NCBI GenBank assembly: GCA_022792535.1
Contig: JAAWBG010000024.1
Span: 1 to 64,000 of the forward strand
Origin: Lachnospiraceae bacterium
Lineage (GTDB): Bacteria; Bacillota; Clostridia; Lachnospirales; Lachnospiraceae
Direction: 5' to 3'
DNA length: 64,000 nt
Shown: positions 53,295-60,607 of the stretch, one piece after another
Position numbering within the stretch: position 1 is the first letter of the stretch
Layout of the letters: every line of letters starts with the position of its first letter
Made by a program: the position numbers and the translations under genes
Notes under the pieces: model-generated
Told to the model about the DNA's origin: nothing
Seen by the model: only the letters and a program-made list of their open reading frames with translations
Databases searched by the model: none

Positions 53295-56200
53295 ATGCAG
53301 GTAATTGGAATTACAGGTGGAGTTGGAGCAGGAAAGTCAGCGATTTTGGAATATTTAGAGCAGAATTACAGGGTGAAAAATCTGGTGGCGGATAAGATTG
53401 CCCGTATGTTGATGGAGCCAGGAAGCGATTGTTACGAGAAGCTGATGAAATTTTTGCCGGTGGAAGTGTACAACGAAGATGAGACCATCAACCGTTCTGC
53501 GTTGGCGGCAGCGCTGTTTAGCTCAGACGATCTGAGAGAGCGGGTTAACAAGGTGATGCATCCTGTGGTCAAGGAATATATTTTAGGACAGATCGAGGAG
53601 CAGAGACGGGTAGGAATCCTGGATTTCGTTATTATAGAAGCAGCTCTTTTGATTGAAGACCACTATGATGAGATCTGCGATGAACTGTGGTATATACATG
53701 CTTCTGAGGAGACCCGGAAACGACGTCTGATGCGGTCCAGAGGCTATTCCCAAGAGCAGGTGGATCAGATGTTTGCCAGCCAGCTCTCAGAGGAAGAATA
53801 CCGCAAACACTGTCAGGTGATCATAGAAAATAATGGAACCAGGGAAGAGACATTTTACCAGGTTGCACAGGCCATCAAAGATAAAAGGGAGTTAAATCGA
53901 ATGGAACAGCAGTTAGAAGGAGTGCCTTTAGTATTCGGATTAGACATTGGTACCAGAAATGTAGTGGGAACCGTTGGATATAAAGAAGAAAATGATTTTT
54001 ATGTAATTGGGCAATGTATGAGGGAGCATGAGACGCGTTCCATGCTGGACGGACAGATTCACGATATCGGACGAGTGGGACGCACCATTAATATTGTGAA
54101 AAAATCCTTAGAAGAACAATGCCACTTATCGCTAAGGGAAGTCTGTATTGCGGCGGCAGGCCGTGTGCTGAAAACAGTTACCACCACAGTGGAATACAGT
54201 TTTCCAGAGGAGATTGTGGTGACGGGAGAAGATGTGCATACCCTGGATCTTTTGGGAATTGAAAAGGCCCAGCAGATTTTAAATGAAAATAACGATACGA
54301 ATTTTAAATTCTATTGCGTGGGATATTCTGTTGTAAAATATTACTTAAACGGAGATGTATTTTCCAATCTGGAAGGCCATAAGGCAGAGGTTGTCAGTGC
54401 AGATATTATCGTAACCTTTTTGCCGGAAGATGTTGTGGATGGTCTGTACGCTGCAGTGGGACTTGCAGGATTGAAAGTGGCAAGTCTTACTTTGGAGCCT
54501 ATTGCAGCGATCAATGTGGCTATTCCAGAGACCTTCCGTATGCTGAATATTGCACTGGTAGACGTAGGGGCAGGAACTAGTGATATTTCTGTCACCAGGG
54601 ATGGCAGCATTATCGCATATGGCATGATCCCCTGTGCTGGAGATGAGATTACCGAGCTGTTGGTACAGCACTATCTGGTGGATTTTAAAACTGCAGAACA
54701 TATTAAACTGAGTTCTACTACAGAGAAAGAAATTGAGTATCAAGATATTATGATGATTAAACATACGGTGACTGCAGAAGAAGTATGGGATTTGATTCAG
54801 CCATTGGTATACAGTTTGACAGAGGACATTGCGGCAAAGATCAAAGAGCTGAATGGCGGAACAACAGTGAGCGCCACCTTTATCGTAGGCGGCGGCGGAA
54901 AGATACATGGATTTGTGGAACATTTAGCAGAAGAGCTGGAACTTCCTTTAGAGCGTGTGGCTCTTCGGGGAGAAGAAGTTTTACAGGAGATTCACTTTGA
55001 ACAGCCGGAGATCAAGAAAGATCCTCTGCTGGTAACGCCTGTCGGTATCTGTATCAGTTACTATGACCAGAAAAATAATTTTGTCTTTGTGCGGTTTAAC
55101 GGAGAGCGGATTAAACTGTACGATAATAATAAGCTGACTATTGTAGACGCGGCTTTAAGAGCAGGCTTTCCTAATGAACAGCTTTTCCCAAGAAGAGGAA
55201 AGGAGATCAATTTCTATGTGAACGGCAAAAAGAGAATTGTCCGGGGAGAACCGGGAGAATCTGCCGTGGTACGGGTGAACGGCAGAGTCACCAGCATCAA
55301 TGCAACCTTAGAGCCAAACAGCGATATTGTGATTGAACCTTCCACAGTGGGGGCAGCGGCAATCTGCCGGTTAGAAGAGTTGGAAGAGTATGGAAGAGTG
55401 GTAATCACCTTTGAAGTCAACGGAAGAATGATTACCTGCCCGAAATTTGCGGAAGTGAATGGAAGCCTGGAACCTCCTTATTATGAGATTCAGGAAAATG
55501 ACTGGGTGGAAATGCGCAGCTTCTATACCGTGGCCCAGATCATAGAATTTATGGACGTGGAAATTGACATGGACAGCGATATTCTGGTGAATAACAAGTT
55601 GGCGGATCTGGACACATTGGTATATGAAAACTTTTCTGTAGAATGGAATGTGATTGCGTATCGGACTCCTCAGTCAGAAATTGAAAATTTCTATAAACAG
55701 CCAGAGCCCTTGCCTGTGGAAGAACCAGAACTGGAACCGGCGCCAGAAAAGGTACTTGAGCCAGCAAAAGAATTAGAACAGCCAGCAGAATCTATAAAAG
55801 AGCCAGAGAAGCCAGCAGAATCCATAAAAGAGCCGGAGAAACCAGCAGAACCAGAGCCGGCAGAAGAAGTGAGACAGTCAGCAGAACCAGAGCCGGAACT
55901 TGAAACCGAGGAACTGAAACAGCCGGCAGAACCGGAGAGAGTATCAGAAACGGTAAGAGGAGAAGAGCGGCCGGCAGTACCAGAACGGATTACAGATATT
56001 GCGCGGGCTTCCAGGCCAGAACGGTCGGCAGAACTGGAACAGCCAGCAAAGCCAGAGCCCTTGGAAGAGCCAGAGTCTGAAATAGAAGAGCCGGAAGAGG
56101 AAATGACCCAGGAAGAATTGGAAGGGAAATTCCTGCGGAATCAAAAGACCAGCATAGATGATATTCGTCCTACCATTATTCGAAAGCCAGAGTCTAAGAC

Positions 56201-56429
56201 TGCAAAGGCAAAACCAGACAATACTTCTCTTCAGGTTATTGTAAATAATGCGGCAGTGACTTTGACCGGAAAACCTTCTTATGTGTTTGTGGATGTATTT
56301 GACGTAATTGGGTTTGATCTGAACAGTGGAAACGGAAGAGCCATCGTCACAAAGCTGAATAACGAGATGCCTTCCTATACTGCTCCTCTACAGTATGGAG
56401 ATGTTATAGAGATCTACTGGGAGGATTGA
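53295..56429 (+). CDS. coaE: dephospho-CoA kinase fused to FtsA-like actin-fold protein
   Basis: One 1044-residue frame. Residues 1-202 are a complete CoaE: P-loop GITGGVGAGKSA, the VADKIAR region, NRSALAAALF, VIIEAALLIE and RRLMRSRGYS. From Met203 (ATG 53901) an FtsA/DUF-like actin-fold ATPase begins: LVFGLDIGTRNVVGTVG (phosphate 1), LVDVGAGTSDIS (phosphate 2, residue 422 on) and FIVGGGGKIHGF (adenosine). Three beta-grasp-like modules (about 615-700, 700-830 and 985-1044) and a Pro/Glu linker with a 30-bp tandem repeat follow. Codon 202 is CGA just before ATG 53901, and AAAAGGGAG lies at proper spacing, so the halves were probably separate genes. Either one bifunctional protein or also a separate FtsA-like product is possible. 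Confidence 0.85.
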   Translation: MQVIGITGGVGAGKSAILEYLEQNYRVKNLVADKIARMLMEPGSDCYEKLMKFLPVEVYNEDETINRSALAAALFSSDDLRERVNKVMHPVVKEYILGQIEEQRRVGILDFVIIEAALLIEDHYDEICDELWYIHASEETRKRRLMRSRGYSQEQVDQMFASQLSEEEYRKHCQVIIENNGTREETFYQVAQAIKDKRELNRMEQQLEGVPLVFGLDIGTRNVVGTVGYKEENDFYVIGQCMREHETRSMLDGQIHDIGRVGRTINIVKKSLEEQCHLSLREVCIAAAGRVLKTVTTTVEYSFPEEIVVTGEDVHTLDLLGIEKAQQILNENNDTNFKFYCVGYSVVKYYLNGDVFSNLEGHKAEVVSADIIVTFLPEDVVDGLYAAVGLAGLKVASLTLEPIAAINVAIPETFRMLNIALVDVGAGTSDISVTRDGSIIAYGMIPCAGDEITELLVQHYLVDFKTAEHIKLSSTTEKEIEYQDIMMIKHTVTAEEVWDLIQPLVYSLTEDIAAKIKELNGGTTVSATFIVGGGGKIHGFVEHLAEELELPLERVALRGEEVLQEIHFEQPEIKKDPLLVTPVGICISYYDQKNNFVFVRFNGERIKLYDNNKLTIVDAALRAGFPNEQLFPRRGKEINFYVNGKKRIVRGEPGESAVVRVNGRVTSINATLEPNSDIVIEPSTVGAAAICRLEELEEYGRVVITFEVNGRMITCPKFAEVNGSLEPPYYEIQENDWVEMRSFYTVAQIIEFMDVEIDMDSDILVNNKLADLDTLVYENFSVEWNVIAYRTPQSEIENFYKQPEPLPVEEPELEPAPEKVLEPAKELEQPAESIKEPEKPAESIKEPEKPAEPEPAEEVRQSAEPEPELETEELKQPAEPERVSETVRGEERPAVPERITDIARASRPERSAELEQPAKPEPLEEPESEIEEPEEEMTQEELEGKFLRNQKTSIDDIRPTIIRKPESKTAKAKPDNTSLQVIVNNAAVTLTGKPSYVFVDVFDVIGFDLNSGNGRAIVTKLNNEMPSYTAPLQYGDVIEIYWED
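55781..55840 (+). repeat. 30-bp tandem repeat in the Pro/Glu-rich linker
   Basis: Two adjacent units (55781-55810 and 55811-55840) differ at two positions and encode PAESIKEPEK twice. A partial third unit follows (CCAGCAGAACCAGAGCCGG). The surrounding linker is a longer P-A-E/E-P-E run, so unit number may vary between strains. Confidence 0.85.
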
Positions 56430-58965: not shown

Positions 58966-59020
58966 ATCGAAAATATGATGCGCGCTAAGATATGAGAGTA
59001 AATCACCGGAGGTGGAATCT

Positions 59021-60607
59021 TTGAACGAGAGAGAAGATTACCTGGACAGATTGTTACGAGGAGTGGAAGAAAACCCGGAAGAGATTCAGGAGACAGAAGA
59101 TGACTTTTTGGAAGAGTTTAGCACTTCCTTTTCAGAAGACGATGAGAATGACTTTCTGAAAGAATTTGAAAAAAGCAGAAACAAGGCGGAAAAGGACCTT
59201 GATTCAGATTTAGATATGGATATGGACTTTGATATGGATGATATTGACCATATCGTCAGCAATGTGAAAAACAGTACCCTGGATGAGCCGGAGGAAATAG
59301 ATACCTTAGAAGAGGTTAATACATTGGGGGAAGACGATCTGTCTATCGAGGAGTCTCTGCAGAATTTTACAGAGGAATCTGGACTAGATGAAATTGATAC
59401 GCATTTTGACTCTGGCGATCAGGAAGAGTTCATGATCAATACCATGGACGAGGCCGATACCATGGGATTTGATACAGATGAGGATATTCTTGATCCAGCG
59501 GATGTGATGGCTGATATGGAGGAGAATCCTTTGTCAGAAGAGGAAAGTATGCCGGAAGATGAGATAGCATCTATGGCTCAGGAATTGGTAAAGGAGATCA
59601 GCGATCTGGGACTTGAGAGCAACGAGGAGATTGAGAAGAAAAACGACCAGTCAGAGTTGGATCATCTGCTGACAGAGGAAGTGGAAGAAGAAGCTTCAAA
59701 AGGAAAAAAGGGGAAGAAAAAAGGAAAAAAAGAGAAAGACCCAGATGGAAAGAAACCTGGATTTTTCAAAAGGTTATCCCTGGCTCTGTTTGGAGAAGAT
59801 GAAGAGGAACTGGAAGAGGAAGGTTCCAATGAGAAGATTCCAGAGATTGGTGAGATTGACAATATATCAGAAGAGAATATGGATATATTGAGAGAGCTGG
59901 AAGAGAAGAAAAATAAGCCGGAAGAGGACGCTAAGGCAAAGAAAGCTCAGAAAAAGAGGGAAAAGGCAGAAAAGAAAGCTCAGAAGAAGAAAGAAAAGGC
60001 TGAGAAAAAAGAACAGAAGAAGAAAGAAAAGCAGGCGAAACCCAAAAAAGAGAAGAAGGAAAAGAAGCCTAAGGTTGTGGAGAAGACCAAGCCCCTTCCA
60101 AAGGGACCAGTATTTTTAATTCTGCTGATAGGAGCCTCCCTGGTACTTCTGATCAATCTGGTTACCAATCAGGTTGGTTATATCACAGCGGTCAATGAGG
60201 CAGAGAGTTATTACGATCAGGGCGATTATGTAGAGGCTTACACTTGTTTTACCCAAGGCGCTAAAGTAAAGAAAGCAGATGAAGAATTGTATCATAAGGC
60301 CAAATATACCGCATACGTTCAACAGCAGCTTCGAAATTATAAAATGTACCAGGAACAGGAAATGCATACAGAGGCGTTGAACGCTTTGATCTGCGGAGTT
60401 GGAAGATACGATAAAAATGTCTCAGACGCAGTGAAGGCGGGAGCCTCTGCAGAATATGATAAGATGATTGCAGAGTTGGAACAGCTTTTGTCTGAAAATT
60501 ATAAGATGACATTAGATCAGGCAAGGGAACTCTATAGTATTCATGAGAGAGATGATTTTACGTATGCATTGTATGATATTATAGAAGAACTGGGACTTTT
60601 GGAATAA
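59021..60607 (+). CDS. large acidic protein with one membrane segment and TPR-like C-terminus
   Basis: About 528 residues. Residues 1-220 are highly acidic (Asp/Glu-rich with phrases like DLDMDMDFDMDDIDH), residues 220-345 are lysine-rich (KKGKKKGKKEKD and EKAEKKAQKKKEKAEKKEQK), one membrane segment is at about 362-384 (GPVFLILLIGASLVLLINLV), and the extracytoplasmic C-terminus has a TPR-like pattern (SYYDQGDYVEAYTCFTQGAK). The start is TTG 59021 because GGAGGTG lies 6 nt upstream; GTG 59012 falls inside that site. Family not recognised. The charged layout suggests a scaffold at the membrane. hisH follows by 20 bp. Confidence 0.85.
   Translation: MNEREDYLDRLLRGVEENPEEIQETEDDFLEEFSTSFSEDDENDFLKEFEKSRNKAEKDLDSDLDMDMDFDMDDIDHIVSNVKNSTLDEPEEIDTLEEVNTLGEDDLSIEESLQNFTEESGLDEIDTHFDSGDQEEFMINTMDEADTMGFDTDEDILDPADVMADMEENPLSEEESMPEDEIASMAQELVKEISDLGLESNEEIEKKNDQSELDHLLTEEVEEEASKGKKGKKKGKKEKDPDGKKPGFFKRLSLALFGEDEEELEEEGSNEKIPEIGEIDNISEENMDILRELEEKKNKPEEDAKAKKAQKKREKAEKKAQKKKEKAEKKEQKKKEKQAKPKKEKKEKKPKVVEKTKPLPKGPVFLILLIGASLVLLINLVTNQVGYITAVNEAESYYDQGDYVEAYTCFTQGAKVKKADEELYHKAKYTAYVQQQLRNYKMYQEQEMHTEALNALICGVGRYDKNVSDAVKAGASAEYDKMIAELEQLLSENYKMTLDQARELYSIHERDDFTYALYDIIEELGLLE

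Follow-up and report, generated by a model that had tools for sequence, protein, structure and literature searches.

How does the enzyme of the last step of coenzyme A (CoA) synthesis come to share a reading frame with an actin-fold protein, and does the union mean anything for the two proteins? The question is raised by a 64,000-nucleotide stretch of a Lachnospiraceae genome (contig JAAWBG010000024.1 of assembly GCA_022792535.1, positions 1 to 64,000; hereafter the window). In the window, positions 53295-56429 of the forward strand form a single stop-free open frame of 1044 amino acids (aa), in which a dephospho-CoA kinase (CoaE) is followed by an FtsA-like actin-fold protein. A first-pass annotation had described this frame as an in-frame fusion and had proposed that it arose recently, when a TGA stop codon between two adjacent genes changed to CGA. 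We confirm the fusion, and we find that it is not recent. It is probably a long-established fusion, one of several independent ones in the Lachnospiraceae, which joined the coupled genes of two likely partners and usually retained the internal start of the second.

The fusion is found throughout the genus of the window genome. Twenty-eight of the 29 genomes of the genus match the protein, and 27 of them read as a single frame through both parts (27/27 own-genus loci, L002-L028). In the 28th genome (G022) a contig break divides the gene, and CoaE and the first FtsA-like part lie in frame on one contig (L030), so that all 28 matching genomes are in frame. The 29th genome (G010), which is 63% complete, had no match. 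Among the fused members are two named organisms, Petralouisia muris and Eubacterium sp. 14-2, which were assigned to genomes of the genus by identical domains. Since named strains and congeners agree, an assembly error is ruled out.

The junction is as the first-pass annotation described it. Codon 202 is CGA, it is followed by an ATG at 53901, and a ribosome binding site (GGAG, 53888-53891) lies 9 nucleotides (nt) upstream. CGA is one transition from TGA, and together with the binding site and the ATG after it this would fit a recent stop loss. However, all eight other unique loci of the subclade to which the window belongs have AAA or AAG ahead of the internal ATG, and the remaining unique fused loci of the genus that retain a start have CAG, CGC, CGG or CAC there. 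No stop codon was found at this position among the fused genus loci read there; the TGA and two separate genes for which the first-pass annotation had proposed to look in relatives were thus not seen in the genus. These subclade codons suggest that the CGA of the window derives from a lysine codon, not from TGA. Moreover, stop loss alone would rarely fuse the pair: of the 69 unique unfused loci, 58 have the FtsA-like gene in another frame than coaE and 11 in the same frame. The arrangement pictured by the first-pass annotation, in which an in-frame start immediately follows the stop, occurs in two of the 69 (L104 and L130). For practical purposes, the fused relatives and their codons refute both a recent loss of one stop codon in the window genome and an error of sequencing or assembly. 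The condition that the first-pass annotation had named as refuting its proposal, a fusion shared by most relatives, holds within the genus, but not across the family, where fusion is a minority state with several origins.

A threshold-based search found the FtsA-like gene in 129/299 family genomes, and in eight of the 129 (7/128 genera) it is fused to coaE; junctions were read in fetched loci, and other genomes were called unfused from a frame of less than 780 aa or a short CoaE frame among the matches listed. The seven genera are a lower count, since three genomes (G051, G143 and G262), with a contig end or a partial match, could not be classed. A contig scan gave fused loci outside the genus of the window (L050, L051, L054 and L060; the domain of L051 is identical to that of G131). 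The genus of G077 is fused in 4/4 genomes and that of G288 in 2/2, so these are not single-genome errors, while G230 is the sole genome of its genus in the sample. The genus of G148 is mixed. The FtsA-like gene was present in 18 of the 21 genomes searched. Four of these have the fusion, 12 (G710 among them) proved unfused on reading, and two (G712 and G723) were judged unfused from the open frame alone. In the fused members, L235, L236, L237 and L238, the junction is very short and its ATG has only a weak binding site.

For the trees, 131 loci with both genes were reduced to 103 unique FtsA-like domains (28 merged), of which 34 are fused and 69 unfused; the locus reading skipped L001, L029-L031 and L089-L094, and L077 is without CoaE. 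In the trees of the FtsA-like domain, the fused rows fall into five to seven separate groups. Three trees require 5, 6 and 7 state changes, and at least 4, 4 and 3 of these, respectively, are forced by starred branches. In the 6-change tree the genus of the window was thinned to 10 rows, L150, L173 and nine near-copies were dropped, and 13/20 family FtsA-like loci and 6/20 others were added; the 7-change tree lost up to 14 more rows and gained 12 loci. On the 6-change tree, one clade for all fused rows was rejected (p-AU 1e-72), with the group defined after the loci had been seen and on a quick tree with weak deep branches. On the same tree a single gain would require 24 losses, and a single origin of the fusion was thus discarded.

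Unfused neighbours stand head to tail and often overlap. A candidate FtsA-like start lies 30 nt or less from the coaE stop in 59/69 unique unfused loci, and the nearest candidate start overlaps coaE in 42/69. Since the ribosome binding site of the FtsA-like gene is often inside the coaE tail, translation of the pair is probably coupled, and an insertion or deletion at the junction could fuse or split the genes without touching the site.

The other adjacent pairs of the operon served as a control. CoaE and the FtsA-like gene are fused in 27/56 contig loci. In contrast, polA and coaE are fused in 0/56 (38 are within 30 nt), the FtsA-like gene and the following metallo-beta-lactamase-fold gene in 0/48 (all 48 starts are within 30 nt), the metallo-beta-lactamase-fold gene and the ACT gene in 0/45, and the ACT and DUF711 genes in 0/45. 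Because the fused protein was the query that retrieved these loci, 27/56 is not a family frequency; as the 27 fused loci are also related, the fair reading is several independent events versus none. Starts were picked differently here than in the 69-locus count (overlap in 13/29 versus 42/69).

The fused frames mostly keep a start for the second protein. The internal site in the window pairs with the anti-Shine-Dalgarno sequence at a computed -8.1 kcal/mol, and of 65 other internal ATGs lying in frame in four window genes, only 2 pair at least as well. An in-frame junction start codon with a site of true-start strength is kept in 31/34 unique fused loci (pairing of -5.7 kcal/mol or stronger; -8.1 or stronger in 29), and 24 of the 31 belong to the genus of the window. 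The median pairing is -8.9 kcal/mol both in 32 fused loci and for 67 unfused starts, compared with -3.0 for the 65 window ATGs and -3.3 for 1288 ATGs inside FtsA-like domains (5.4% reach -8), where the best of several candidate starts was scored per locus and control ATGs were scored singly. The site is stronger than the mean of synonymous versions in 28/32 related loci. Selection on the RNA level beyond the peptide gave only a weak signal in synonymous shuffles and was not adopted.

Three lineages lack the internal site or have only a weak one. In the genus of the window, L027, L028 and L030 have no start codon left before the FtsA-like domain, and L027 and L028 have GTG or TTG at the first residues of the domain without a binding site. 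L099 has a weak internal site. The four fused members of the G148 genus pair weakly at the junction ATG (-0.7 to -4.1 kcal/mol), and two fused members of that genus have a TTG eight codons further upstream (-5.2 and -5.5). In these lineages, the FtsA-like protein is probably made mainly or only within the long chain.

The CoaE half matches PF01121 (132.6 bits, cut-off 27, aa 3-183) and TIGR00152 (137.5 bits, cut-off 65.55, aa 3-190), as well as dephospho-CoA kinases in the PDB (best E 6.4e-19). The stretches GITGGVGAGKS (P-loop), AD-x-IA, HP and LLIE are present in the protein and in the alignment consensus; the P-loop and the conserved stretches of CoaE have catalytic roles. A second CoaE was sought in the window's own genome and none was found, and in 8/8 fused family genomes there is one CoaE match each among the matches listed. 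Since it is the sole CoaE match of the genome, the fused domain is likely to be active as a kinase. As no stop separates the two parts and a second CoaE was not found, every CoaE would be made within the long chain, barring a protease cut. Thus, CoaE is likely always produced tethered to the FtsA-like protein, and free FtsA-like protein is likely an optional extra.

The FtsA-like half matches PF14450 (41.5 bits, cut-off 31.8, aa 420-553). Its match to the FtsA model TIGR01174 (aa 213-556) is 87.4 bits, or 91.6 bits in a second search, below the cut-off of 175.85, and thus it is not a canonical FtsA. At such a score, the tethering to a membrane or division filament envisaged by the first-pass annotation would be speculative. 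Its profile aligns with solved FtsA in one continuous alignment over positions 1-331 (E 2.7e-18), ahead of EutJ, MreB and PilM; such an alignment would be in keeping with the order of subdomains in the actin core of FtsA. Most columns of the actin-fold phosphate and adenosine motifs are invariant among 19 aligned proteins. This part may have ATPase activity. FtsA carries a C-terminal amphipathic membrane helix; the conserved C-terminus of the window protein, GDVIEIYWED, is unlike such a helix as judged by eye. The C-terminal end has a weak PDZ_2 match below its cut-off, and the extension at 54999-55694 matched no Pfam family at E up to 5. The window's own genome has one SepF and, in our search of it, no FtsA above the cut-off. 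An FtsA above the cut-off was likewise missing from all of 120 Lachnospiraceae genomes searched with TIGR01174. In that family search, the FtsA-like protein accounted for most of the best-scoring entries among the matches listed. In a sample of the class, the FtsA-like gene is present in 90/391 genomes.

The ratio of nonsynonymous to synonymous substitution rates (dN/dS) is 0.08 for the CoaE domain, 0.04 for the FtsA-like domain and 0.19 for the linker. These values are rough, as dS is saturated and only 28 to 108 of the 153 possible pairs among 18 loci gave a value, depending on region. At this rough level, both parts appear to be under purifying selection.

In the majority of relatives with the pair, coaE and the FtsA-like gene stand head to tail, with the second binding site often in the coaE tail and the translation of the two probably coupled. 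We propose that a small insertion, a deletion or a stop loss at the junction would then make one frame and leave the internal site in place. One mRNA could give two products, the long CoaE-FtsA-like chain and, by initiation at the internal ATG or its equivalent, additional free FtsA-like protein. The long chain would be the sole source of CoaE, and hence of the last step of CoA synthesis; the three lineages with an absent or weak site would depend on it mainly or exclusively. Because the pair has been fused repeatedly, CoaE and the FtsA-like protein may act as partners. A bolder version, which we consider rather doubtful, is that CoA synthesis is docked on an actin-like scaffold. CoaE would work with a filament-forming FtsA-like ATPase, CoaE-tagged subunits would be diluted by free ones, and CoA supply would be tied to envelope growth or division.

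The main and serious rival is that overlapping genes with no functional connection fuse and split by minor changes where they meet, and that CoaE tolerates a long C-terminal tail. Since the internal start is mostly kept, the supply of FtsA-like protein would hardly be altered by such neutral fusion. The frequent overlap of the two genes when unfused and the start kept in 31/34 fused loci are consistent with this, as are the coexistence of both states in one genus (fused in 4 of the 18 genomes that have the gene), the low share of fused genera, and a gene pairing that is itself not universal. However, four other adjacent pairs never fuse, including the FtsA-like and metallo-beta-lactamase-fold pair with all of its starts within 30 nt. 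Moreover, the fusion is held in all 28 matching genomes of the window's genus, and it has been retained in lineages with a missing or weak internal start. We therefore regard neutral fusion as possible but somewhat unlikely. It is very unlikely that the long chain is cleaved after synthesis and that two separate proteins are in use. A short and variable linker, under less constraint than the domains, would suit cleavage, but the linkers of the fused lineages differ in length and sequence, and no common cleavage motif was seen by eye (no motif search was made).

Several observations weigh against a functional partnership with a dual-start fusion. The recurrence may reflect only the easy mechanics of overlapping genes. 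The deep branches of the trees are weakly supported, the number of events shifts with the choice of rows, and gains are not firmly separable from losses. The FtsA-like gene is absent at the threshold used in 170/299 family genomes, whereas CoaE is found in 290/299. No adjacent FtsA-like gene was present in 32/80 fetched coaE loci, 7/20 family FtsA-like loci show no CoaE, and outside the family CoaE was beside the FtsA-like gene in 0/20 class-level loci (L176-L195; 5.5-6 kb fetched each). The partnership is therefore neither general nor required. As for the internal site, its strength in the genus of the window mostly follows from the encoded peptide (mean z -0.66 versus synonymous codons), and scoring the best candidate per locus flatters the junction starts.

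Features of the fused gene in the window, with coordinates and basis
Feature	Position	Strand	Basis
Dephospho-CoA kinase (CoaE) domain, aa 1-201	53295..53897	+	PF01121 and TIGR00152 above cut-offs; PDB matches
GGAG core of Shine-Dalgarno-like internal site, within the CoaE tail	53888..53891	+	sequence; computed pairing
CGA codon (codon 202) preceding the internal ATG; proposed lost stop	53898..53900	+	sequence; sister codons
Internal ATG, possible start of free FtsA-like protein	53901..53903	+	start and pairing kept in 31/34 unique fused loci
FtsA-like actin-fold core, about aa 211-560; DIGT, DVGAGTSD and GGGG motifs	53925..54974	+	PF14450; FtsA profile match
Conserved FtsA-like extension without Pfam match	54975..55664	+	family search; rough dN/dS 0.05
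Pro/Glu-rich stretch of variable length	55692..56204	+	frame lengths in the genus; rough dN/dS 0.27
Conserved C-terminal region, ends GDVIEIYWED	56217..56426	+	alignment consensus; rough dN/dS 0.11

Across the genus, the open frame is 928-1142 aa long (the split genome G022 excluded), and the Pro/Glu-rich stretch varies strongly in length among congeners. The upstream neighbour of the fused gene is polA, and on the other side are genes for a metallo-beta-lactamase-fold protein, an ACT-domain protein and a DUF711 protein. Further downstream, 59012-60607 of the window encodes a 531-aa acidic and lysine-rich protein without a Pfam match. In 9/20 of the class-level loci L176-L195, a QCTD stretch like that of endonuclease III is seen in the displayed start of the upstream frame.

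Independent fusions of one gene pair, arising repeatedly, are classic evidence of a functional link. If true, the link would join CoA supply to an actin-like protein, so far uncharacterised, of a major gut family. It could be tested directly by natural comparisons, within the mixed G148 genus and between variants with and without the internal start; cultured species with the fusion include Petralouisia muris and Eubacterium oxidoreducens. Among the papers found on CoaE with FtsA, on CoaE fusions, and on FtsA or FtsA-like proteins in Lachnospiraceae or Clostridia, no title or abstract opening reports the fusion. The available main text of a fusion survey (PMC4921024) contains neither 'coaE' nor 'dephospho-CoA'.

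CoaE is found in other fused chains. The CoaE-UPF0157 fusion of Actinobacteria (M. tuberculosis CoaE; PRK03333) likewise has an N-terminal CoaE and an extra C-terminal part in one chain. Its partner is an unrelated domain, whereas in the window the partner is an actin-fold protein and the internal start is usually kept in the fusion. NF002879 matches only aa 1-192 of the window protein, below its cut-off (98.8 versus 215 bits). The M. tuberculosis CoaE is covered in the literature (PMC2765170, available part). In eukaryotic COASY (PPAT-DPCK), the dephospho-CoA kinase is likewise part of a fused chain, and the structure PDB 2f6r, a bifunctional coenzyme A synthase, matches the CoaE of the window (E 7.4e-14). 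The partner in COASY is the preceding enzyme of the same pathway, whereas that in the window is not a CoA enzyme. The likeness to FtsA (TIGR01174) lies in the profile alignment over positions 1-331 of the solved protein; unlike FtsA, the window protein scores below the cut-off, has a long extension and a Pro/Glu-rich tail, stands behind polA and coaE, and is fused to CoaE. Finally, the available part of PMC10666635 describes tight or overlapping same-strand gene pairs as enriched for subunits of complexes. The unfused CoaE/FtsA-like pairs resemble such translationally coupled pairs in being tight or overlapping on the same strand, but they differ in that this pair repeatedly becomes one frame, with the second start usually kept.

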